This document shows positions 1,394 through 36,994 of a stretch of DNA of 56,094 bases, in pieces; within the stretch, counting starts at the first letter, position 1, and every line of letters starts with the position of its first letter. Location: IMG/VR virus record IMGVR_UViG_3300033145_000771, positions 1-56,094 of that record; one strand, given 5' to 3'. The notes beneath the pieces were generated by a model. The model saw only the letters and a list, made by a program, of their open reading frames with translations, had not been told where the DNA came from and did not search any database. Position numbers and translations under genes: made by a program. The DNA is from a virus.

Positions 1394-2365
1394 TTACTCA
1401 TCTTCAGATTCGCCTACTAAGCTTGGCCAGCTACCGATAGCCCGACCTTGGTCGTCTTTTTTGACTTCTCTCTTAGCAGGAGCAGGGTCTTCTTCAAGGC
1501 TCTTTTTGGTTCCGGCGGGTTGGCCTTCAATAGTTTTCAGCCTCTTAGAAACGTCGGTCAGCTGCTCGGTAATCGTTGTTAGCTGGTCAGAAGTTTCCTT
1601 CTTTTCAAGTTGGCCGGTGATAGCAGCTACCGATTTAGCTAAATCCTCAACAGTCTGTTTGAGTTCCGAGGAATTATCATCGGTCTTCGATGTATCTGCT
1701 TTCTTTGTGGGCAGCAACGCCTGAGCTTCTGCAATCAAAGTCTCAAGCTTCTTCGTTTGCTCATCAGAAGCTTTATCAACTTTTTCCGAATCTGCTTTTT
1801 CTGTCGGCTTGTAACCTTGACCAGCATGAATAGCAATTAAACCAATTGCCGCACCGAGGTCAGTTGGAAAGTCGTCTTTGTAACCTTCAATAGTCTCCAG
1901 AGCCTTTACGATTTCGGTTATCGTCGCTTCGTTAAACTCTGCTTTTTCGAATTTGGTGATCTTCTCACCGAACGTCTTTTCTATAATTTTCTTAATTCTT
2001 TCGTCCATAGGACTGTCTCCTTTTGCGAGGTAGTAAGATTCGGTACGTTGAAAGCCACCTTCAGATTCTACGAGTTTGGAGTAAGAACAGCTAACCGAAG
2101 AATCATCAGGAGATTCACTCCAGACGCTGAAATTAAAGCTCTTCATATTAGCTATTTTTTCACCGTTAACTGTAACCGTAGTATTTTTCTTTGTACCGTC
2201 ACTTTCTATCTCAATGTTAATTTTCTTTTTTGCCTTCAAGAGAGAACCATCGCTTGGCTTCCCTTCTTGTTTGAACAATAGAAATGGTCTCTTGTTCGCA
2301 GGTTTGTCTACAAGAGACACTTCTTTAAGCGTGATATCTTTCATCTTTCTGCTTTTTTCAATCAT
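1394..2365 (-). CDS. Scaffold-like / prohead core protein
   Basis: The protein is about 323 aa. The ATG at 2365 is chosen over an upstream TTG because AGGAG lies eight bases before it. The N-terminus has the segment EVSLVDKPANKRPF, common in phage prohead protease and scaffold proteins. The rest is Lys/Glu/Thr-rich with a predicted coiled coil (about 220-290, with repeated KKLETLIAEAQ and QLTTITEQLTDVSKRL stretches), and it ends in an acidic tail, GESEDE. Sitting between the XkdF-like protease and the capsid gene, it most likely acts as an internal scaffold that the protease digests. A structural core protein is the alternative. Confidence 0.65.
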   Translation of the reverse strand: MIEKSRKMKDITLKEVSLVDKPANKRPFLLFKQEGKPSDGSLLKAKKKINIEIESDGTKKNTTVTVNGEKIANMKSFNFSVWSESPDDSSVSCSYSKLVESEGGFQRTESYYLAKGDSPMDERIKKIIEKTFGEKITKFEKAEFNEATITEIVKALETIEGYKDDFPTDLGAAIGLIAIHAGQGYKPTEKADSEKVDKASDEQTKKLETLIAEAQALLPTKKADTSKTDDNSSELKQTVEDLAKSVAAITGQLEKKETSDQLTTITEQLTDVSKRLKTIEGQPAGTKKSLEEDPAPAKREVKKDDQGRAIGSWPSLVGESEDE

Positions 2366-2376
2366 TAGCAAAACTC

Positions 2377-3354
2377 CTAATCTGTTCTTGCGTAACCTGC
2401 CATTGAATAACCTGTCAACTTGCCCTTCTTGATCGCTTTCCAGATCTTGTTGTCAAGTATTCTGGTAACTAATACCCATGAGCCTTTCTTGACCGACTTT
2501 CCTTCGATCACAAAGTCTACAGGAGCAAGATAGTTCTCCAGTATTCGTACCTTAACATTCTTACCTTTGTGCATCACCTTGAAGGTTTGTACTTTTTCCA
2601 TAAACTGATACGCAGCTTTACGGATTTCCTCTGCATTCGCTTCGTCGCCTTGACTGTCTTCTTCATCCGGCTCGTACACAATACCGTAGACAATGCGCTC
2701 CTCTTTCTTAGTAGCTTTAAGAAGAGGTATAAAAGACACTTCTTTCTCAAACATCGGCTTACCGAGTTTGGAAGAACTTTCTACTTTTGGCATTTCTACC
2801 TTCTCTACTTTACAAGCTGGACGCAAAACCTTATCGAACAATGGAATGCAGTCACCACTAAAATCGGTCGTATAGACAAACACACAAGGCTTATCAAGCT
2901 GTTCACCAAGCATCTTGGTAATCGATTCTTCTAAAACCTCGTTTGGCTCGTCTTCATTAGACCATATAACAACCTCTACATCGTCGTTCTCCGCGGTAGC
3001 GAAATCTTCTTTGATAAGCACGGCCACTTTATCTAAGACAATTGGTTTGAATTGAGCAATATCTAAACCGACTCTCTTTATCTCCATCGCTTTTTTGAAT
3101 GCCTGCCGATCGATTGGCTCAGTGCTGTTCTCTAAATCTCGATTACGCATTACTTTCAACAGCATTCTGTATTTCGCTATAACGTCATTACGGTTAAGAC
3201 TTCCAACAACAATATCTTCGCTCTTCTCAAAGTGTTTGTTCCATAGGCCCATGAATCTCAATTTAAGCACATGCAACTCTCTGTCAGAAGCTTTGTTCAA
3301 CTGTTCATGTTCCAAGTCTTCTATACGTAATTTAATCTTATCGAACATATTCAT
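2377..3354 (-). CDS. XkdF-like prohead protease
   Basis: A 325-aa protein whose C-terminal half (about 215-325) carries the XkdF-type pattern: RIVYGIVYEPDEEDSQGD, EIRKAAYQFMEK, a VRILENYLAPVDF strand, then GSWVLVTRI and the closing KLTGYSMAGYA. XkdF-family proteins are putative serine proteases of phage heads. The N-terminal half is a helical extension of unknown role. The start codon overlaps the stop of the MuF-like gene (TAATG), which suggests coupled translation. It precedes the scaffold-like and capsid genes, the expected position for a maturation protease. The catalytic residues cannot be fixed from sequence alone. Confidence 0.7.
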   Translation of the reverse strand: MNMFDKIKLRIEDLEHEQLNKASDRELHVLKLRFMGLWNKHFEKSEDIVVGSLNRNDVIAKYRMLLKVMRNRDLENSTEPIDRQAFKKAMEIKRVGLDIAQFKPIVLDKVAVLIKEDFATAENDDVEVVIWSNEDEPNEVLEESITKMLGEQLDKPCVFVYTTDFSGDCIPLFDKVLRPACKVEKVEMPKVESSSKLGKPMFEKEVSFIPLLKATKKEERIVYGIVYEPDEEDSQGDEANAEEIRKAAYQFMEKVQTFKVMHKGKNVKVRILENYLAPVDFVIEGKSVKKGSWVLVTRILDNKIWKAIKKGKLTGYSMAGYARTD

Positions 3355-5279
3355 TATCCTTTGATTTTTTGGTTTGGAACTCTATGTCTAACTTTCGGCT
3401 TTGCTACAACAGGCTTCGTAGGCTTAACCGTAGGTATCTTCCCAACAGGAGGTTTACCACTAAGCCCTCCTTTGTGACCAAGCTTGCGTAGAGCACGGCT
3501 GATCTTGCTTGATTCGGCAGGACCTGCCTCCTCTAATTTATTGAGCAGACTCTGCACTTGTCCATCATGCAGTCTATCCGGCATAATACACGATGCGTTT
3601 GCCACTTCTCCCGGAGACCCCTGGCAGGGAGGTAAATCATTAACAACGGGCAGCATGGCACATCGGCAATTATGACTTGCAATTCCATTAGCAATATAGT
3701 ATGATTCGGTTGTTTCTAAATTGTAAACATAATTACTGAAATTAAAGGAGTTGATATGTACAACCGAATCGACAAAGAAATCGTTACACAAATTGTCAAT
3801 TTGTACGTTTCCGGATGGTCCGAAAATAGTGTTGCTCTGCATTTTGGATATAGCAGACGCTGTATTCGCAAACGTCTTTTGGATTCCGGTATTCATATCA
3901 GGAACCAAAGCGAGGCCGAAGCACTCAAATGGTCGCAAATGAGTCTTGAGCAACGAAAGGAACAAATTAAAGCTGCTCATGATGCGGCTAAGGGTCGGAC
4001 TGTAAGCTGGTCTACCAAATGCAAACATGCAAAAACGGTCGAAAAGAGACCAAGCAATGTCTCTGAATACGAGATTGTTGTTCAACGAAAGCTGTTTGTT
4101 AGAGGCATTCCGACCATCGCTCAGAAGGCTATCGGTGCCTATAATTGCGATATTGCTGCCAGTCCCGTCATAGTGGAAGTCTGGGGCGGAAACTGGCACT
4201 TCTTTGGTGATCACGCCCGGCGATGCGAAGAACGACTCAGCTATATCCTCAATTGTGGTTGGTTTGTTTATATCCTGCCAATCACTAAAAGATTCCCCCT
4301 GACGGAGGCCATGGCTGATAACTTGGCTTCCTATATCAAGCGAATTCGCAGGGACAAACCCTCTATTCGAGAGTATAGGATGGTTTGGTGTGGCTCTGAT
4401 TATACGACCAGTGGCTGTCTTGATAATATGAATTTTCCCCTTGTACCAACGTTTACTGGCCGCCGTAATCCTGCCTCTGGGAGATATGAGAGAATCGCCC
4501 GGTAGGCAATTTGGGTGGACAGGTATTATCCCTTTTGCCTCCGCTGCGGAATATCTTGTTTCATCCAAACCTAAACAATCGCCACAAGCACCCGGAGAAG
4601 CTGAGAATTCAACTTCAGTGACTCCCACATCTTCTAAGCCTTGTACATAGCCTATATTCTGGGCACGGGCCGTTTCGGTCCGGGCTATGGTAGCTGCACG
4701 CCTTCGGTGGGTCTTGCCGGCATATCGCTGGACCTTCTTATTAATATCGGCCGGCTTTAACTTTGGATACTTTTCTTTGTTCTCAAGAAGCCTGCGATAA
4801 TTGATAATCGACTGCGTTTGATTCTCTGTCAAGCCTACTAAGGGACGGAGTTCGCGGGCAATTTTCGGCATTCCCCGGCCTTCCTTTATCCCGGTTTTAA
4901 TGTAGGTACGAATGCCCATCTTCGTTTTCTTCGTGACTTCTCGTACCAATTCAGCGGTAAATTTTTCAGCAGCAGTAACTGCATTGACATTAAGTACGTC
5001 AAAAGCACCCTTTACCTGAAGTAACTTATAGGCATTATTTCCGCCTGTCTGCATGATTTTTAATGTAGCGGGTTTAAGCATCTCCCGTCCACGTTCCTCG
5101 ATGAAACCCCAATCGGATAACTCGGATGTAATATCCTTAATAAATTTATGTGTTAAGTCGTGACGGATCTGCTTATGGGCAAAATAAAACCAACTACGCA
5201 CAGCAATTAGCATAGTATTCTTATTCCTGCCTACTAAGCTGCTTAAATCACTCTGAATTGTCTTAGCTATAGTAATCAC
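3354..5279 (-). CDS. MuF/SPP1 gp7-like head protein interrupted by an intein
   Basis: A 641-aa precursor. Residues 1-257 and 538-641 form a 361-aa extein with the head-morphogenesis signature RTETARAQNIGY, then EFSASPGACGDCLGLDETRY and GIIPVHPN|CRCAMLPVV, where the HPNCRC motif is restored by splicing. Family members are minor head proteins near the portal that affect DNA delivery or head assembly. Residues 258-537 are an intein (separate entry), inserted before the first Cys of CRC in the most conserved part of the domain. The C-terminal tail is basic and Pro/Lys-rich. It starts four bases inside the end of the preceding gene, as expected in a tightly packed head operon. Confidence 0.88.
   Translation of the reverse strand: MITIAKTIQSDLSSLVGRNKNTMLIAVRSWFYFAHKQIRHDLTHKFIKDITSELSDWGFIEERGREMLKPATLKIMQTGGNNAYKLLQVKGAFDVLNVNAVTAAEKFTAELVREVTKKTKMGIRTYIKTGIKEGRGMPKIARELRPLVGLTENQTQSIINYRRLLENKEKYPKLKPADINKKVQRYAGKTHRRRAATIARTETARAQNIGYVQGLEDVGVTEVEFSASPGACGDCLGLDETRYSAAEAKGIIPVHPNCLPGDSLISPRGRITAASKRWYKGKIHIIKTATGRIIRATPNHPILSNRGFVPANSLDIGSQVISHGLRQGESFSDWQDINKPTTIEDIAESFFASPGVITKEVPVSAPDFHYDGTGSNIAIIGTDSLLSDGRNASNKQLSLNNNLVFRDIAWSLFDRFCMFAFGRPAYSPTLSRIMSSFNLFLSLLKTHLRPFECFGLALVPDMNTGIQKTFANTASAISKMQSNTIFGPSGNVQIDNLCNDFFVDSVVHINSFNFSNYVYNLETTESYYIANGIASHNCRCAMLPVVNDLPPCQGSPGEVANASCIMPDRLHDGQVQSLLNKLEEAGPAESSKISRALRKLGHKGGLSGKPPVGKIPTVKPTKPVVAKPKVRHRVPNQKIKG
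3677..3705 (+). promoter_or_regulatory. Candidate sigma70 promoter for the antisense endonuclease in intein 1
   Basis: TTGCAA at 3677-3682 and TATGAT at 3700-3705 are separated by exactly 17 bp. They lie inside the intein's C-terminal coding region and point toward the endonuclease start at 3756. An AAAGGAG ribosome site follows at 3744-3750. Based on consensus match and position only. Confidence 0.55.
3756..4505 (+). CDS. Vsr/EDxHD-like homing endonuclease, antisense inside intein 1
   Basis: A 249-aa protein read on the plus strand entirely within intein 1, in register with the intein codons. A helix-turn-helix lies at the N-terminus (about 17-46, SENSVALHFGYSRRCIRKRLL). The core at about 100-165 has SEYEIVVQRKL, then YNCDIAASPVIVEVWGGNWH, FGDHARRCEERLSYIL and GWFVYIL. 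This fits the Vsr-fold/EDxHD pattern of an acidic strand pair, WH, a conserved Asp/Arg helix and GW. AAAGGAG at 3744-3750 precedes the ATG. Its TAG stop is the complement of the CTA Leu codon that is the second codon of the intein. The last 40 or so residues lie opposite the N-terminal splicing motifs and may be a fortuitous extension. It presumably drives intein homing. Confidence 0.85.
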   Translation: MYNRIDKEIVTQIVNLYVSGWSENSVALHFGYSRRCIRKRLLDSGIHIRNQSEAEALKWSQMSLEQRKEQIKAAHDAAKGRTVSWSTKCKHAKTVEKRPSNVSEYEIVVQRKLFVRGIPTIAQKAIGAYNCDIAASPVIVEVWGGNWHFFGDHARRCEERLSYILNCGWFVYILPITKRFPLTEAMADNLASYIKRIRRDKPSIREYRMVWCGSDYTTSGCLDNMNFPLVPTFTGRRNPASGRYERIAR

Positions 5280-8204: not shown

Positions 8205-8384
8205 TTAACCGTAATTCTGCCACCAAGTTAACAATCTTTTCAAACGATAAGTATTACGACGTCCCCAAGAGCCTCTCATCTTTTCATTTAGCGACGAATA
8301 AAAGCCGGAGTCTATCTTCGGTTCTTTCGGCTCATCCTCGTATGTCATCTCAGATACACTGTTTGGATAACTTGTAGCACTCAT
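8205..8384 (-). CDS. Small 59-aa protein coupled to terL
   Basis: The ATG at 8384 overlaps the terL stop in an ATGA junction. The product begins MSATSYPNSVSEMTYED and ends with a basic, aromatic tail (RRNTYRLKRLLTWWQNYG). It fills what would otherwise be a 195-base gap. Function unknown. Confidence 0.6.
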   Translation of the reverse strand: MSATSYPNSVSEMTYEDEPKEPKIDSGFYSSLNEKMRGSWGRRNTYRLKRLLTWWQNYG

Positions 8385-11300
8385 GCTGACACCGAACCTT
8401 TCTTTCTTGGTCTGTCTACGGTGTACAATATGTACCGTACAACGTCAAGCGTATGGTCGTTTTTCGCCAAAGGTAAATCTTTAGGATCCCTAGAGGCGGA
8501 GCCCTTTGGGTATTGGTACATGGCCATCTCCCGAGCTGTATTCCGGCAGGACTTAAAGATATATAAGCTCGGCTTCCCATTCGCCTTAACTTTGAGTTTA
8601 CTTTGTACAAGTTCAATACCACGAGCCACATCGTTTCGAGCTATCAGAGTAGGTATGCCGGCTTTGCGAAGCTCGCCTCTGTCCTCAGCATTTTCAGGGT
8701 CTGCGTAAGTTCCTTGATATTTCTCATTAGAACTTCTCGCTTTGATATTAGCAATATGCTCCTGAATGCCGGTTTTGGCTCTGTAATATTCGCGATATAC
8801 ATACCAGTTCTCATCCTTATCCTTAGCAAGCCACAGACAATTGCCACAAACCATCGGCCTGCCTCTACGCCTAACGACTAAAGTATTATACTTAGGAACT
8901 TCAACACAAAATATCATATCGTTATAATCTATTGACATGATTTTCATTTTTTGTACCGCAGCCAACTTAGCTTTGCAAATAGTAAGAATATAATAATCTC
9001 GCATTCCAGAATAACCTGCTGTCTTTGACGTTTTGATAGTCGTAGATTTTCCCAACAAAGCATAAACTTCCTGTAAATCATCTATTAGATTTTTACAAGT
9101 AGAAAAGTGCTGCATTCTATTTCTATCGCTTACTCCATCCCCCATCAAATGTCCTTTGACTAAGTTTTCTAATTCATCCCGACCCCAACTATAAATTTCT
9201 CTTGGAATATTCTTATTCTTATTCGGCGACCATTTTGTATTATTTAAGAACCAACTCCATAAATCTTTGCTTTGAATCCGATAATCTTTTACTCTATTAT
9301 CTGAGATTGCAGTTGTATATTTCCAACCGAGATTATTTAGTATTCTTTCCACTTCCTTACATTTTGTTTTTTGAGCAATTCTTACAAACCAACCGGCTTT
9401 ACCTTTAAGAAGCGATCCGTCAGCAAGCCATAATCCTACAAATTCAGCGAATGCGGTCTTATTTACAGGAGATAGAATGGTCTTAGAACGTTTTCCATGA
9501 GGTACTATAAAATCAACAGTCTTTTTGGCTGATATAGTGTTCCACCCTACAGGTATATCATAACAAGACAATTTTTCAGCAGGTACAAATTTCCATTTCT
9601 TTGGCTTTCTTCTATCTACAACCACCATCTTATGATTGGGCGTTACACAAAAGTTAGCACTTTCAACTCTAGGTGTACTAATTAACATTTTCCCTTTGTA
9701 TCGCTGTTTAATATATTTAACTGGTTTTTGATATTTTATTATTTTTGAAAGAGGATCTATAGTGGCAACTTTTTCTTTTTTATTAAGGTTAGCAAACAAT
9801 TTCCACCCTTCGTTAGTTAATATCTCTGTTTCTTTATCGTAGCAGACGAAAGGATTGGTAAAACCAAAATCAATACCTCGGTAGAGTGTCCAACCATCTG
9901 GAATCCTGAAAGGCTTTATAACATGTATCGAACGGTTGAAGTTTTTATATACAGCGCCATAATAGCTTGCGAACTTACCCTCAATACGAGTAGCCTGCAC
10001 TCCGTCCGGCCACTCAGCAATCATATTATCTATTCGTTGATCCTCTATAAACCCTCCTCGACTCTTCCTGTTATCGTTTAAGTTGAAATGAAATATTTCG
10101 TCTGTTGCGGGTAGTTCCTCTATTCTTTCTTCTAAAAAGGTTTGAGGCATAATAGGTGTCATGCTCCAACTGAGATAACCCTGATAAGTTATCAGTCGTG
10201 CTTGAGTTTCATGTAGTATGCCTTCGAAATCATGGAGACACTGTTCGTCGTAATGAGCAGATTTTATTGCTCTTCCCTGAAACAATGTTCGTCCCTGGTT
10301 GAATGCTTTGAACTCAATGGTATTGCCTGTATTTAAATATATTTTACGAGGCACTTTGTCCTGACCATAACGAATATCAATAATATGATGTTGAGGAATG
10401 AATTTCTGAAGATACTGTTCCCATAGAATATCTCGAACTTGTTCCCAGGTCTCAATTCCTACCCAATGAATTCCTTTAGCTTGCTTAAAAGGATGAATAT
10501 TGAGAGCTAACTGTGCGAGATCCATCATATTGGTATATGTTTTCCCGCTGTTGTGATGAATAACGCCACCTGACAAATAATTGTGATAAATAGGCACATT
10601 AAAATCCCAAATATCATCAAATCTCTTTACATCCAAACTAATTACCGCTATACTGTCATTTGATTTTAATTTAGGAGAATTACATGAAACGTAAGCATCC
10701 TGTTCGTGATCGTGGCCTACCACGGAAATGTTATGATTACCCAGTCGATTCAATCCGCCAATGGATTGCTGAGGGCAAAACTCAGGCATGGATTGGCAGT
10801 AAACTTGGAGTTGATGCAAAGTTAATTCATAAAGTTTGCAAAAAGCATGGCATAAAGTGCCAAAGAACCGGTCCGCGTTCCGGGCCTGAATGCCTATTTT
10901 GGAAAGGAGGTCGAATAATCGATAAAGACGGCTATGTCTCTGTCTATTGTCCGGGGCATCCTTATGCCAAAAAGCCAAACAAGAAGTATGTCCTTGAACA
11001 TCGCTTGATAATGGAACTTTCTCTTGGCCGTTACTTAAAGAGATACGAAATTGTCCATCACAAAAATGGGATAAGAAATGATAACCGTCTTGTAAATCTT
11101 GAGCTTTTTCATTCAAATGCAGAACATCTTCACAAGGAACTAAAGGGTCATTGCCCGAAATGGACGAAGGCTGGAAGAGAAAGGATGTTGGCTGGAGTTG
11201 TGAAATACTGGTCCAATTACAAAAAGAATCTAAAACCAAATGATTCGCCGAGCAAACAATAGATTGCCCATTTGACAGCTTGAGTTCATATAGCTGCGCC

Positions 11301-11572
11301 GGTGTTTTCTTAAATGGCTTATCTGCTTTTGCAATAACCTTCTTTTGTCCATCGAAAGCGTAAACATGAAATGGCTTATCTATGCTGGATACTTCTTTTT
11401 CTATTTTTTCTACAGGATCGTAAATCAATTGTTCTCCGCCTAAACACAAGTTGCCTCCGAACATCCATTGAATAGCGGCCTGCGATTTGAAATAAGCTCG
11501 TTGATCCTCGCTAAGAGGCTTATATAAAGCAATGTGTTTGCCTACTCGCTTTATTTGTTCCACACTAAGCAT
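8381..11572 (-). CDS. terL: Large terminase subunit with two inteins
   Basis: A 1063-aa precursor. Removing residues 43-341 and 577-911 leaves a 429-aa TerL. Intein 2 splits the Walker A motif, which is restored as GGN-L-SGKT. Walker B is SAHYDEQ (about 439-445). The nuclease domain has GIDFGFTNPF (split after V576 by the LAGLIDADG intein), YADPENAEDRGEL and the closing NDHTLDVVRYILY. TerL is the ATP-driven packaging motor and the nuclease that cuts the concatemer, docking on the portal. It starts eight bases inside terS. Both catalytic centres are interrupted, so activity should depend entirely on protein splicing. Confidence 0.93.
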   Translation of the reverse strand: MLSVEQIKRVGKHIALYKPLSEDQRAYFKSQAAIQWMFGGNLCLGGEQLIYDPVEKIEKEVSSIDKPFHVYAFDGQKKVIAKADKPFKKTPAQLYELKLSNGQSIVCSANHLVLDSFCNWTSISQLQPTSFLFQPSSISGNDPLVPCEDVLHLNEKAQDLQDGYHFLSHFCDGQFRISLSNGQEKVPLSSDVQGHTSCLAFWHKDAPDNRQRHSRLYRLFDLLSKIGIQARNADRFFGTLCHAFCKLYELTLHQLQVYCQSMPEFCPQQSIGGLNRLGNHNISVVGHDHEQDAYVSCNSPKLKSNDSIAVISLDVKRFDDIWDFNVPIYHNYLSGGVIHHNSGKTYTNMMDLAQLALNIHPFKQAKGIHWVGIETWEQVRDILWEQYLQKFIPQHHIIDIRYGQDKVPRKIYLNTGNTIEFKAFNQGRTLFQGRAIKSAHYDEQCLHDFEGILHETQARLITYQGYLSWSMTPIMPQTFLEERIEELPATDEIFHFNLNDNRKSRGGFIEDQRIDNMIAEWPDGVQATRIEGKFASYYGAVYKNFNRSIHVIKPFRIPDGWTLYRGIDFGFTNPFVCYDKETEILTNEGWKLFANLNKKEKVATIDPLSKIIKYQKPVKYIKQRYKGKMLISTPRVESANFCVTPNHKMVVVDRRKPKKWKFVPAEKLSCYDIPVGWNTISAKKTVDFIVPHGKRSKTILSPVNKTAFAEFVGLWLADGSLLKGKAGWFVRIAQKTKCKEVERILNNLGWKYTTAISDNRVKDYRIQSKDLWSWFLNNTKWSPNKNKNIPREIYSWGRDELENLVKGHLMGDGVSDRNRMQHFSTCKNLIDDLQEVYALLGKSTTIKTSKTAGYSGMRDYYILTICKAKLAAVQKMKIMSIDYNDMIFCVEVPKYNTLVVRRRGRPMVCGNCLWLAKDKDENWYVYREYYRAKTGIQEHIANIKARSSNEKYQGTYADPENAEDRGELRKAGIPTLIARNDVARGIELVQSKLKVKANGKPSLYIFKSCRNTAREMAMYQYPKGSASRDPKDLPLAKNDHTLDVVRYILYTVDRPRKKGSVSA
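8840..9844 (-). other. Intein 3, LAGLIDADG intein in the TerL nuclease domain
   Basis: Encodes residues 577-911 (335 aa). Block A is CYDKETEILTNEGWK; block B is FCVTPNHKMVVVDRR. The two dodecapeptide motifs are FVGLWLADGSL (711-721) and LVKGHLMGDGVSD (804-816), so this is a conventional intein with a sense-strand LAGLIDADG endonuclease. Blocks F and G are YNDMIFCVEVPKYNTLVV and PMVCGN, ending in Gly910-Asn911 (the usual penultimate His is missing), with Cys912 as +1. It interrupts the nuclease motif after GIDFGFTNPFV. Confidence 0.93.
10626..10654 (+). promoter_or_regulatory. Sigma70-like promoter for the antisense HNH gene in intein 2
   Basis: TTTACA at 10626-10631 and TATACT at 10649-10654, each five of six to consensus, with a 17-bp spacer. 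It is embedded in the sequence encoding the intein's C-terminal splicing region and reads into the HNH gene 30 bases downstream. Confidence 0.65.
10684..11262 (+). CDS. HNH homing endonuclease, antisense inside intein 2
   Basis: A 192-aa protein on the plus strand, opposite intein residues 104-297, the place where a sense-strand homing endonuclease would normally sit. An N-terminal helix-turn-helix is seen (TQAWIGSKLGVDAKLIHKVCKKHG, about 33-58). The nuclease segment is GYVSVYCPGHPYA, VLEHRLIMELSLGRYLKRYEIVHHKNGIRNDNRLVNLELF, with the HH, N and N residues of HNH_3-type enzymes. AGGAG at 10673-10677 precedes the ATG, and a good promoter lies just upstream. It is out of register with the intein codons by one base, unlike the antisense gene in intein 1. 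Confidence 0.9.
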   Translation: MKRKHPVRDRGLPRKCYDYPVDSIRQWIAEGKTQAWIGSKLGVDAKLIHKVCKKHGIKCQRTGPRSGPECLFWKGGRIIDKDGYVSVYCPGHPYAKKPNKKYVLEHRLIMELSLGRYLKRYEIVHHKNGIRNDNRLVNLELFHSNAEHLHKELKGHCPKWTKAGRERMLAGVVKYWSNYKKNLKPNDSPSKQ

Positions 11573-11915
11573 GATTCATTTTCAGCTCATCTTGAATTGC
11601 TTTAGCTTCTTCGTCGGACATTACAGCATGAGCAATTCCAAATTCACCGCTTACTGAACTAAGATCGGGTATGCGTTTTCGCATTACAGCAACTAAAATA
11701 GTTTTGTCTTCAAAAGCCTGCTCGACGAAATGCTCGGTTAAATTCATTCCTTTTCGCTTCTCGACTCTCGCGATAGCTTCTTCGAATTGAGCAATGGTTA
11801 TTCGATTACGGGTACCCTTTGGTCTGCCAGCAGGATTACCTGATTGCCCCTTCTGGAAGCGGTGTTTGTACTTAACAGAATTATCAGGCTTCTTTGTTTT
11901 TCCTTTTGTATCCAT
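11565..11915 (-). CDS. terS: Small terminase subunit-like protein
   Basis: A 116-aa protein with the N-terminal signature FQKGQSGNPAGRPKGTRN typical of the DUF5681 group that lies just before phage large terminases, followed by a short helical region (ITIAQFEEAIARVEKRKGM) and an acidic C-terminus. It overlaps the terL start by eight bases. TerS proteins normally recognise packaging sites and regulate TerL. This one is short, and the DNA-binding fold is not obvious, so the role is inferred from context and signature. Confidence 0.75.
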   Translation of the reverse strand: MDTKGKTKKPDNSVKYKHRFQKGQSGNPAGRPKGTRNRITIAQFEEAIARVEKRKGMNLTEHFVEQAFEDKTILVAVMRKRIPDLSSVSGEFGIAHAVMSDEEAKAIQDELKMNHA

Positions 11916-18540: not shown

Positions 18541-18712
18541 TTTGTTTTGCCTCCCTTCTTGCAGGATCAACGCTGTCCATACATCTTTGCGAACACCAAT
18601 ACTCATCTTCATCCGGCAGGTAAATTGGATTATCAAGCGGATCCCTGAGTTTCTTCCTACATCCCTTACACTGGCATAAAAACTGCCTGGATTGTTGTGC
18701 TTTGCGTCTCAT
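18506..18712 (-). CDS. Zinc-finger-like protein (68 aa)
   Basis: MRRKAQQSRQFLCQCKGCRKKLRDP and EDEYWCSQRCMDSVDP form two CxxC-type pairs, a layout seen in small phage zinc ribbons. It overlaps the dcm stop. Unknown partner. Confidence 0.6.
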   Translation of the reverse strand: MRRKAQQSRQFLCQCKGCRKKLRDPLDNPIYLPDEDEYWCSQRCMDSVDPARREAKQNAKTLDKPYNV

Positions 18713-19509
18713 TCGAATAACGCTCCTAATGTCCTAATCGCCTTTTCCGCTTGAGCAGGAATTACCCCGTTGCCCAGGAGCCTAAGTCTGTCCATCCAAT
18801 AGGCAAGCCCATCATCCATTCTCGGAACATCGGAGATTTCTCTAAGTCTCGGCGGCCAAGGTGGAGGAGTACATCTCGTAATTTTGGTCCGCGTCGTAAT
18901 CCGCTCGTTTTGCTTATACGAGACCAAGTATTCCCCTCTGTAATTACTGGGCAACTGCCCCCCTGGGATTCCGCTGTTCGTGGCGTTGGCAAGCACAAAT
19001 AGCCGTTGCCGTGTCGCCGGGGCTCCAACTTCCCACGCTGTAAACAGTCCTGCCTCAACTGAGTAACCCATATTTCGTAGGCTTCGATAAACTTCGGGGA
19101 ATCCGAGGGTAAGGTGTCCGGCGACGTTCTCGAAGACGCACCAAACAGGTCTAACTGCCTCGACGATTCGAGCAATATGCGGCCAAAGGTGTCGGGGATC
19201 GTCGGTTCCCTGTCTCTTGCCAGCGAGGCTGAACGGCTGGCACGGAAATCCTCCCATAACGATGTCCACCCGTCCTCGAAAAGGCTCCGCATTGAAGGTT
19301 TTAAGATCCGTCCAGATAGGTGCTGCATCCATTTTACCCGCTTCAATCTTTGAAACCAAGTTCGCGCAAGCGAACATTTCGATCTCCACATAGCAGATTG
19401 TTCTAAGAGAGGGCATAACTCTTTTGACTCCAAGCTCAAGACCTCCATAGCCCGTGCAGAGGGATAAACAGGTAAATTCTTTGGTAAAATCCACATTAGT
19501 TCTTGACAC
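18709..19509 (-). CDS. dcm: C5-cytosine DNA methyltransferase, short form
   Basis: A 266-aa protein. Motif I is CLSLCTGYGGLELGV (14-28), motif IV is GGFPCQPFSLAGKRQG (86-101) with catalytic Cys90, motif VI is ENVAG (127-131), motif VIII is QRLF, and motifs IX/X are LLGNGVIPAQAEKAI. It is shorter than typical enzymes (about 320 aa or more), mainly in the target-recognition region. It transfers a methyl group from AdoMet to cytosine, presumably to protect phage DNA. The start is a GTG at 19509, with AAAGG upstream. An HNH gene lies just upstream on the other strand, with a second diverged copy of this gene's first codons beyond it (19929-19994). Confidence 0.9.
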   Translation of the reverse strand: MSRTNVDFTKEFTCLSLCTGYGGLELGVKRVMPSLRTICYVEIEMFACANLVSKIEAGKMDAAPIWTDLKTFNAEPFRGRVDIVMGGFPCQPFSLAGKRQGTDDPRHLWPHIARIVEAVRPVWCVFENVAGHLTLGFPEVYRSLRNMGYSVEAGLFTAWEVGAPATRQRLFVLANATNSGIPGGQLPSNYRGEYLVSYKQNERITTRTKITRCTPPPWPPRLREISDVPRMDDGLAYWMDRLRLLGNGVIPAQAEKAIRTLGALFE

Positions 19510-19531
19510 CTGTCAACCTTTCTATTATTGT
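19503..19531 (+). promoter_or_regulatory. Candidate promoter for the HNH gene beside dcm
   Basis: TTGACA (19503-19508, perfect -35) and TATTGT (19526-19531) with a 17-bp spacer. It reads to the HNH start at 19556, away from the dcm gene it overlaps. Confidence 0.5.
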
Positions 19532-19555
19532 AATAGTATTTATGAAAGGAATACG

Positions 19556-19966
19556 ATGAGTTGTATACCAGATATTAAAACTACCAAGAAAATGTATAAG
19601 CTTTATCAACAGGGATTTAGTTTGGCTCAAGTAGGAAAAGCGTTTGGAGTAAGCAGACAAGCAGTATATGACCGCTTTCATGTTCGCAATCTTGAGTTGC
19701 GCACAGTCAAGCCATTGCCATTTATTATGTTTGAAGGCAAAAAATATACGCGTAGAAAATTGGGATATTATGCCTGCACTAACGGCGACAGACACTACCT
19801 GCATCGAGTTATATGGAAGTCTATAAATGGCAAAATACCACCAGGTTATGACATTCACCATATAGATGGTGATAGAACCAATAATCATATTGATAATCTT
19901 GAATTGATTACAAAATCTGAACATTCGTCTAAATATCCTCACCACAAAAATCAGTACACAAGCTGA
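19556..19966 (+). CDS. HNH endonuclease inserted antisense at the 5' end of dcm
   Basis: A 136-aa protein; start at ATG 19556 after AAAGGAATACG. The N-terminal helix-turn-helix is SLAQVGKAFGVSRQAVYDRF (about 22-42). The nuclease region is HRVIWKSINGKIPPGYDIHHIDGDRTNNHIDNLELIT, with HH-D-N-N of HNH_3-type homing enzymes. It lies on the plus strand amid minus-strand early genes and has its own promoter. Two versions of the dcm start codons flank it, so it looks like a free-standing homing gene that rebuilt the 5' end of the gene it entered. Confidence 0.88.
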   Translation: MSCIPDIKTTKKMYKLYQQGFSLAQVGKAFGVSRQAVYDRFHVRNLELRTVKPLPFIMFEGKKYTRRKLGYYACTNGDRHYLHRVIWKSINGKIPPGYDIHHIDGDRTNNHIDNLELITKSEHSSKYPHHKNQYTS

Positions 19967-19994
19967 TACATCTAAGTTCTTCGGTATTATCCAC
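19929..19994 (-). pseudogene. Orphan copy of the dcm N-terminus
   Basis: From a GTG at 19994 the frame reads VDNTEELRCISLCTDFCGEDI then stops. Aligned with dcm residues 5-19, ten of fifteen residues are identical (NVD-T-E-C-SLCT). It overlaps the 3' end of the HNH gene on the other strand. GGGG lies at ribosome-site distance upstream, so it is likely the original dcm start, now cut off. Confidence 0.6.
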
Positions 19995-20004
19995 ATTCCA
20001 GCCC

Positions 20005-29324: not shown

Positions 29325-29870
29325 TTAAGGCATTTGGCTTCCTGCCGACCTGCCTACAGGTTCTGCCGCCGTAAGTTTCATATAATCATTTGGGAAGTTT
29401 ATTAAAGCAAATTCACCGAAGAACTCTATTGCTGCTTTGTCGTAGGCTTTAGCAGCTTCTTCCTCAGTTGCCCGAGTACCGAGATGCGTCATTTTGCCCT
29501 GGAACTTAATTCTTGCCTCCCACCCTTTTCCTGTTCTGCCCGGCCTTATCCCCTTAAATCTGGACGCCTTGGTTTTCCATGGATGAGAGTTCATCGCATT
29601 TTCCCCCTTCGAACATGCCCTGATGTTGGATTTGCGGTTATTGAGTCCATTATGGTCCCGGTGGTCTGTTGATATGCCATCTTTGGGTTGCAAGCCGAGA
29701 ATCTCGCGGTGCATATAAAAATATAATGTCTTTTTCCCTACCCTCTTACTCCTGATAGCATAAAAAGTGTATGGGGTTTTTAGTACACGCCACTTGTACT
29801 GGTTTATTCGCTCATAATCCTCATCATCAACCACTGCAACTTTGCCTTGCGTTAGTGGAATTGTTTTCAT
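29325..29870 (-). CDS. HNH endonuclease with AP2 domain (first of two)
   Basis: A 181-aa protein. N-terminal MKTIPLTQGKVAVVDDEDYERINQYKW module (shared with 36548-36994), then HREILGL...STDHRDHNGLNNRKSNIRACS (HNH-type: H, N, N), then KASRFKGIRPGRTGKGWEARIKFQGKMTHLGTRATEEEAAKAYDKAAIEFFGEFALINFP, an AP2 DNA-binding domain. This is the common phage HNH-AP2 homing endonuclease. Its ATG overlaps the stop of the ParB-like gene. Confidence 0.92.
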   Translation of the reverse strand: MKTIPLTQGKVAVVDDEDYERINQYKWRVLKTPYTFYAIRSKRVGKKTLYFYMHREILGLQPKDGISTDHRDHNGLNNRKSNIRACSKGENAMNSHPWKTKASRFKGIRPGRTGKGWEARIKFQGKMTHLGTRATEEEAAKAYDKAAIEFFGEFALINFPNDYMKLTAAEPVGRSAGSQMP

Positions 29871-36547: not shown

Positions 36548-36994
36548 TCAAATTTTATGATATATCTTCTTCGCTTCCAAGTAAGCATTGTGAGCTTCTT
36601 CGGCAGTCTGAAAATCTCCCAGATGTATGGACTTGCCGTTTAATCTTATCTGTGCTTGATATTTCTTTTTTCTTTTATGCCAATGATAACCTCTGGGATT
36701 CGTTTTATTCCATTGATTCTGACTATGGGTTACGATTCGTAGATTCGACCTGCAATTATTAAGGGTTATGTGATTTTCGTGGTCTGCTTGACGCTTATCG
36801 CCTCTTTTGAGTCCAAGGATTTCACGTGCCATATAAATCTTATGCTCCTTGCCATTTATTAGACCGTTATATCGCCTCGCATAGTAGCTTTTCGTATTTT
36901 TCCATTCGGCAAACCATTTCCATTGATTCAGCCATTCGTAATCTTCGTCATCGACTATTGCATATTGGCCTTGTGTAAGTGGTATTTGTTTCAT
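36548..36994 (-). CDS. HNH endonuclease with AP2 domain (second)
   Basis: A 148-aa protein. MKQIPLTQGQYAIVDDEDYEWLNQWKW, MAREILGLKRGDKRQADHENHITLNNCRSNLRI (HNH) and a degenerate AP2 domain (GYHWHKRKKKYQAQIRLNGKSIHLGDFQTAEEAHNAYLEAKKIY). Paralogue of 29325-29870. First gene of the early region, directly after pseudoknot copy A. Confidence 0.92.
   Translation of the reverse strand: MKQIPLTQGQYAIVDDEDYEWLNQWKWFAEWKNTKSYYARRYNGLINGKEHKIYMAREILGLKRGDKRQADHENHITLNNCRSNLRIVTHSQNQWNKTNPRGYHWHKRKKKYQAQIRLNGKSIHLGDFQTAEEAHNAYLEAKKIYHKI

Follow-up and report, generated by a model that had tools for sequence, protein, structure and literature searches.

The terminase large-subunit locus and its inteins

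The DNA analysed here, called the window throughout, is the whole 56,094-nt IMG/VR virus record IMGVR_UViG_3300033145_000771 (positions 1-56,094). Its minus strand carries a gene for the terminase large subunit (TerL) that is interrupted by two inteins, the first of which splits the P-loop (Walker A) motif and carries a putative HNH homing endonuclease gene on its opposite strand. The features of the locus, with model confidence given as the predicted local distance difference test (pLDDT), are as follows.

8381-11572, minus strand: TerL open reading frame (ORF), 1063 amino acids (aa), with two inteins; matches to PHROG terminase large subunit at 8.3e-29 and 2.2e-16
10550-11446, minus strand: intein 1 of TerL, 299 aa, Cys1...HHN|Ser+1, splitting the P-loop as GGNL|SGKT
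11162-11446, minus strand: N-terminal splicing half of intein 1, residues 1-95, blocks A and B, with invariant Cys1 and His69; pLDDT about 97
10655-11161, minus strand: linker of intein 1, translated from the strand opposite the HNH gene; disorder is predicted for most of it, and mini-inteins lack it
10550-10654, minus strand: C-terminal splicing half of intein 1, residues 265-299, blocks F and G, with D281, Y290 and N299 invariant; pLDDT about 97
8840-9844, minus strand: intein 2 of TerL, 335 aa, a conventional sense-strand LAGLIDADG intein, Cys1...VCGN|Cys+1
10684-11262, plus strand: putative HNH_3 homing-endonuclease gene, 192 aa, with an N-terminal helix-turn-helix (HTH), an HNH core and a C-terminal helix
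10626-10631, plus strand: -35-like hexamer TTTACA, in the block F coding part (intein residues 272-274)
10649-10654, plus strand: -10-like hexamer TATACT, at a spacer of 17 and 29 nt upstream of the HNH start
10673-10677, plus strand: Shine-Dalgarno sequence AGGAG, 6 nt upstream of the HNH ATG

The splicing domain of intein 1 matches Pfam Intein_splicing (1.9e-10, in a search with the whole TerL ORF) and NCBIfam intein_Nterm (2.5e-10). Cys1, the block B His69 and N299 are invariant in 54 aligned inteins of the HNH family, His298 is present in at least 90% of them, the block F Asp is invariant or nearly so, and 49 of the 54 match Pfam Intein_splicing. Removal of intein 1 leaves an intact host protein, and the junction FGGNL|SGKTY or its equivalent is empty in 23 of 23 TerL relatives. 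TerL is a single continuous ORF and not the two host ORFs expected of a split intein or fractured gene. Intein 1 also lacks the same-frame endonuclease domain between blocks B and F that characterizes a classical large intein, a profile search having found no nuclease match in the sense frame between its splicing halves. Intein 1 is predicted to splice autocatalytically.

The protein encoded opposite intein 1 matches HNH_3 (PF13392; 1.3e-8, 34.7 bits against a curated cut-off of 24.8) and PHROG HNH (9.9e-28). HNH_3 is matched by all 57 nucleases of the family, in which H126, N134, N138 and H148 are invariant, each lying inside or adjoining the HNH core. Together with the splicing residues and domain matches, these results bear out the sequence-only reading, made earlier from the letters alone, of an intein at 10550-11446 in the TerL Walker A motif with an HNH gene on the other strand. 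That reading had also placed the gene between blocks B and F; the antisense placement stands, but the gene faces intein residues 62-255 and therefore overlaps block B, whose His is residue 69, at its 3' end, and in some relatives it reaches block A. The register is such that position 1 of the HNH codon lies opposite position 1 of the TerL codon.

Both strands are kept open in one register

Relatives were collected by HNH scans of IMG/VR and genome contigs, and 89 loci (IMG/VR plus one GTDB contig) were examined. Splice junctions were located by pattern and then checked by eye, and the loci are partly dependent on one another. In this survey, which kept the best 80 of 482 relatives and so favours close HNH homologues, the facing frame is open at 87 of the 89 HNH loci, every one in the same register; the exceptions (L084 and L100) have short HNH genes with stops in all antisense frames and are apparently free-standing. 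The scan of genome contigs with the HNH alignment gave one match only, also apparently free-standing. The same layout occurs in seven Pectobacterium phages, Dickeya phage Setonix and Pseudoalteromonas phage PHS3, with an identical register where checked. The sequence-only reading had stated that it would be undermined if the reverse-strand ORF were not conserved in related inteins; the HNH gene instead keeps its position, register and sequence at 87 of the 89 loci.

In the window, the splicing register opposite the HNH gene is free of stops (0), whereas the remaining two antisense registers contain 8 and 13. Synonymous recoding of the HNH gene (5000 trials for each of three models) put on average 8-10 stops into the splicing register, and no trial left it without one (P < 2e-4). 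Over 59 representatives with less than 80% identity to each other, the stops by antisense register total 331, 0 and 498, and 306-318 are expected in the facing (middle) register, where the lowest of 300 simulated totals is 267. The corresponding counts for eight free-standing HNH homologues are 65, 66 and 73.

Substitutions among 82 distinct HNH sequences indicate which of the two frames is selected as a protein. At a divergence of 5-15%, the rates per site at HNH codon positions 1, 2 and 3 are 0.038, 0.028 and 0.179, and position 3 corresponds to position 2 of the facing intein codon, where any change alters the amino acid. Identity in the same range is 0.94 for the HNH protein versus 0.80 for the facing linker translation. 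The piling of changes at HNH codon position 3 shows conservation of the HNH at the protein level, the main constraint on the facing stretch being that it remain open. Judged by these substitution patterns, the HNH protein is under purifying selection across the family.

AlphaFold models, with a folded HNH protein, folded HINT halves and a disordered linker, agree with the HNH being the constrained protein. In the intein model, residues 1-95 and 265-299 form the HINT fold, and the closest PDB folds are the Npu and Ssp DnaB and Mtu RecA inteins (E about 2e-6). The linker scores a pLDDT of about 40-60 over most of its length, with one helix at 188-218. The HNH model has a mean pLDDT of 89, and its best PDB structure match is I-HmuI, supported by a sequence match of 3.7e-4.

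In some relatives the HNH gene spans nearly all of block A. In Pectobacterium phage Ymer, in PHS3 and in two relatives from IMG/VR, the C-terminal end of the HNH reaches to within 37 nt of the Cys1 codon, and conservation is visible in both frames over that region. We also note that in loci L094, L092 and L082 the HNH stop lies opposite intein residue 6-8, so that both strands code over most of block A.

Putative expression signals of the antisense gene

The sequence-only reading had pointed to an embedded promoter, TTTACA-17-TATACT, in the coding part of blocks F and G. This site (10626-10654) agrees with the consensus at 10 of 12 positions, but it does not by itself exceed chance, as the window holds 3 such matches versus 3.1 expected; enrichment was therefore tested across 59 loci. 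Sigma-70-like promoters are enriched 5' of the HNH starts, with a mean best score of 8.44 out of 12 versus 7.09 in shuffled sequences, and scores of at least 10 out of 12 are reached in 25% of the loci versus 1.9% of the shuffles. One locus (L087) has a perfect promoter, TTGACA-18-TATAAT. Shine-Dalgarno sequences precede many HNH starts in the family. Thus the family-wide enrichment upholds the promoter proposal where the single site does not, and together with the Shine-Dalgarno sites it supports separate expression of the HNH gene, probably from these promoters.

Distribution, mobility and decay

The 23 closest TerL relatives of the window (58-79% identity) are all empty exactly at both intein sites, including the insertion point of intein 2, FGFTNPFV|C. 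In the comparison with GenBank phages, the matches listed for the window TerL span the second intein only, with no TerL relatives among the best matches. The same element is present in unrelated terminases, since similar HNH-intein units occur in TerLs without alignable similarity, such as those of the window and L021. In L021, as in the window, the antisense-HNH intein in the TerL P-loop is followed by a LAGLIDADG intein further downstream in the same protein. Similarity among the HNH proteins correlates more closely with that of the splicing domain (rho 0.58) than with that of TerL (rho 0.36); these statistics leave out L045, L049, L081 and L086, where junctions were misplaced automatically, and L083, where the HNH match is short.

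The hosts include TerLs of Terminase_6 type (Ymer) and Terminase_3 type (PHS3, L098), and most insertions lie in P-loops, at GGNR|SGKT or GK|T. Other hosts, named by reading the sequence with no profile behind the names, are a clamp-loader-like protein (L083, 1616-3451, minus strand), SNF2-like helicases (L068, L085) and a coupling-type ATPase (L069). In PHS3 (L015), the GenBank annotation misses that the TerL ORF runs without a break through the intein (1703-3826, minus strand): it gives TerL only as 1700-2875, starting after the intein, and places an HNH gene on the opposite strand at 2968-3678. The TerL of Ymer is annotated as a hypothetical protein.

A scan with the first 62 intein residues returned 80 loci, many on contigs already found: 72 with an antisense HNH, six mini-inteins (130-152 aa, no HNH), one internal-deletion form and one truncated contig, with no sense-strand HNH among the 80. 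The mini-inteins retain exactly the protein splicing domain. One of them (L154) is 95% identical in DNA to a full-length relative (L160) in the N block, the HNH cassette being the difference. L153 equals L151 minus an exact in-frame 522 nt, which destroys the HNH, and the flanking exteins are 99.9-100% identical. At L075 a stop lies inside the HNH frame and the TerL frame is still open.

Elsewhere in the window, the plus-strand stretch 19454-19966 encodes another HNH_3 protein (6.6e-20), which has an HTH and overlaps the minus-strand ORFs 18709-19509 and 19496-19996. An AP2-HNH-like protein (36548-36994) and a further, weak HNH_3 protein (29325-29870) lie on the minus strand, so that this one 56-kb phage contig holds at least four HNH-type genes.

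A second antisense nuclease in the MuF intein

The same genome carries another intein of comparable architecture, with the following features.

3354-5279, minus strand: MuF-like head protein, the intein host
3669-4508, minus strand: MuF intein, 280 aa, the second antisense-endonuclease intein of this genome
3756-4505, plus strand: antisense ORF of 249 aa for an HTH and PD-(D/E)XK (MTES_1575/Vsr-like) nuclease, with the Shine-Dalgarno sequence AAAGGAG

The stop codon of the nuclease ORF abuts the Cys1 codon of the intein, and four of six members of the nuclease family match MTES_1575 (best 7.1e-9). Eight IMG/VR contigs carry this nuclease in antisense orientation within MuF-type genes, and matches spanning 80% or more of its length occur in 115 GenBank phage records (Salmonella, Pseudomonas, Gordonia, Klebsiella, Escherichia and others), the carriers being head or MuF genes where annotated. 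In 12 of 12 loci checked the facing frame is open and the reverse-strand ORF is conserved. In Escherichia phage fEg-Eco06 (L142, 1501-2154) a stop interrupts the antisense nuclease frame and the MuF intein frame is open, as in a decaying nuclease. As to annotation, the alignment to PHROG phrog_15127 'head protein' runs through the linker that derives from the reverse of the nuclease gene; some MuF inteins, such as that of Escherichia phage Snoke, are annotated as inteins but their antisense gene is not, and in Salmonella phage PK2 the antisense ORF is annotated as hypothetical.

The sequence-only reading held that the register and the endonuclease family differ between the two inteins, and both differences are found: nuclease and intein codons are aligned in the MuF family, unlike the opposed first positions of the TerL family, and the nucleases are PD-(D/E)XK/Vsr-like and HNH_3, respectively. 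Since the nuclease fold, the host gene and the register, which is constant within each family, all differ, independent origins of the two are likely, as that reading had also suggested. This falls short of proof, as an hhalign comparison finds a weak resemblance between the N-terminal HTHs of the two nucleases (84.6%, 6.8e-6); an HTH is too generic to decide origins, and the likeness would allow for shared DNA-binding modules.

A proposed homing intein with a separately expressed nuclease

The best explanation, to which we assign a probability of roughly 0.88, is a homing intein with a nuclease that is produced on its own, from a gene on the opposite strand. The TerL mRNA would be translated straight through the intein, the ends of which would fold as a HINT splicing domain with the translated back of the nuclease gene as a dispensable loop, and splicing would rebuild the P-loop. 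A sigma-70-type promoter and a ribosome site in or beside the block F coding DNA would drive separate synthesis of the HTH-HNH nuclease, which probably cuts intein-free P-loop DNA, with repair then copying in the whole element; the patchy distribution and the empty alleles are consistent with such cleavage and homing. Several points weigh against this explanation. We infer splicing, transcription from the promoters, P-loop cleavage and homing for every member; the near-universal antisense layout holds for close homologues, given how the survey was drawn; strong promoters occur in just a quarter of the loci and some loci have no obvious Shine-Dalgarno sequence; five of the 54 inteins give no Pfam splicing match at E 0.01; and the structural match of the HNH model to I-HmuI is weak (E 0.2, prob 0.93).

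An alternative that we consider improbable, though it survives best, is that the intein is real and the antisense HNH gene is a relic or rarely expressed, homing lying in the past and the gene now being passive. Decay does occur in the family, as seen in L153 with its HNH mostly lost, six more mini-inteins and the stops in L075 and fEg-Eco06. The ORF of the window, however, is intact, with a start, a Shine-Dalgarno sequence, a promoter match and every invariant HNH residue; purifying selection acts on the HNH family-wide, and patchy presence set against empty relatives suggests recent mobility. A mainly regulatory gene, whose transcript or HTH protein damps TerL and whose nuclease activity is secondary, is less probable still: transcription from the internal promoter would oppose that of TerL and the protein has an N-terminal HTH, but HTH parts are normal in homing nucleases, the invariant residues cluster at the HNH core, and mini-inteins without the gene are viable alleles.

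We give next to no credence to a self-splicing RNA intron in TerL, since, although antisense endonuclease genes are known from nuclear group I introns and insertion at conserved sites is typical of both kinds of element, no ribozyme core was found by Rfam over 8300-11700 on either strand with E allowed up to 1, the insert continues the open TerL frame and has Cys1, the block B His and HN|S/T/C, the HINT model matches PDB inteins, and the mini-forms keep exactly the domain needed for protein splicing. Equally negligible is a functional HNH gene facing a TerL frame that is open by chance: long antisense ORFs do arise by chance in high-GC DNA and free-standing HNH genes are common in phages, but this is refuted by the register test (0 stops versus about 310 expected, with the other registers full of stops) and by synonymous recoding, and the frames opposite free-standing homologues are closed, the splicing residues invariant and the empty sites precise.

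Comparison with known systems and implications

The mycobacteriophage TerL P-loop inteins are large inteins with an in-frame nuclease (Kelley 2016, PMC5050341). They share with the homing intein described here a HINT domain, the TerL P-loop site, mobility, mini-intein derivatives and a nuclease between the splicing halves, but their nuclease is part of the intein polypeptide, whereas here it is a separate opposite-strand gene with its own predicted promoter and ribosome site; the terms antisense, opposite and reverse are absent from the main text of that study. The ShiLan domain and Pacc40, found inserted in phage methylases as 'hidden HNH' elements (Arsenault 2025, PMC11855218), resemble the present element in having an HNH in another frame of an open phage gene, a disordered host-frame translation and a patchy, homing-like distribution. 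ShiLan, however, lies on the same strand in the third frame, with no splicing domain and no detectable ribosome site, whereas the window HNH lies on the opposite strand within an intein and has a putative promoter and a Shine-Dalgarno sequence. Antisense His-Cys homing genes are known from nuclear group I introns, for example I-DsqI of Didymium (PMC9548176), which is likewise a homing gene opposite a splicing element and is separately transcribed; it resides in an RNA intron in ribosomal DNA, where the antisense strand need not be open. Here, splicing is predicted to take place at the protein level, which requires both strands to be coding.

Split inteins with a homing gene between their halves, termed 'fractured genes', were reportedly described by Dassa in 2009. 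They would resemble the present case in that the nuclease is apart from the splicing polypeptide and the genes are of phage type, but there the host gene is said to be in two, whereas TerL is not. I-HmuI (PDB identifier 1u3e), an HNH homing endonuclease of Bacillus phage SPO1, shares the HNH core; its gene lies in sense orientation within a group I intron, unlike the antisense HNH gene here. Full-text searches of a collection of openly licensed papers, bioRxiv preprints excepted, turned up no account of an intein with an antisense endonuclease. With nearly 90 related copies in environmental viral contigs and cultured phages, this appears to be an old, widespread and seemingly undescribed form of mobile element.

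The family offers dozens of natural sequences, in an exact register, for measuring the constraint imposed by dual-strand coding, with built-in controls in the free-standing HNH genes, mini-inteins, empty sites and the in-frame deletion derivative. It also explains misannotations such as the TerL start placed after the intein in PHS3 and the hypothetical TerL of Ymer, and the mini-inteins and cultured-phage TerL inteins are candidate splicing tools. A separate promoter and ribosome site would be a different answer to the question of how hidden HNH genes are expressed, raised in PMC11855218. The textbook layout of a large intein, with the nuclease as a domain of the spliced-out protein, is broken here, and nuclease expression would be freed from both host-gene expression and splicing. 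More broadly, we lean towards the view that inteins with an antisense nuclease form a distinct and ancient class of mobile element with at least two origins in phages, one giving the HNH type of P-loop ATPases and another the PD-(D/E)XK type of MuF head proteins, with the nuclease transcribed separately from the late host gene and both strands of several hundred bp, in some cases including catalytic splicing blocks, kept translatable by selection. If so, separate transcription would release the timing of the nuclease from splicing.

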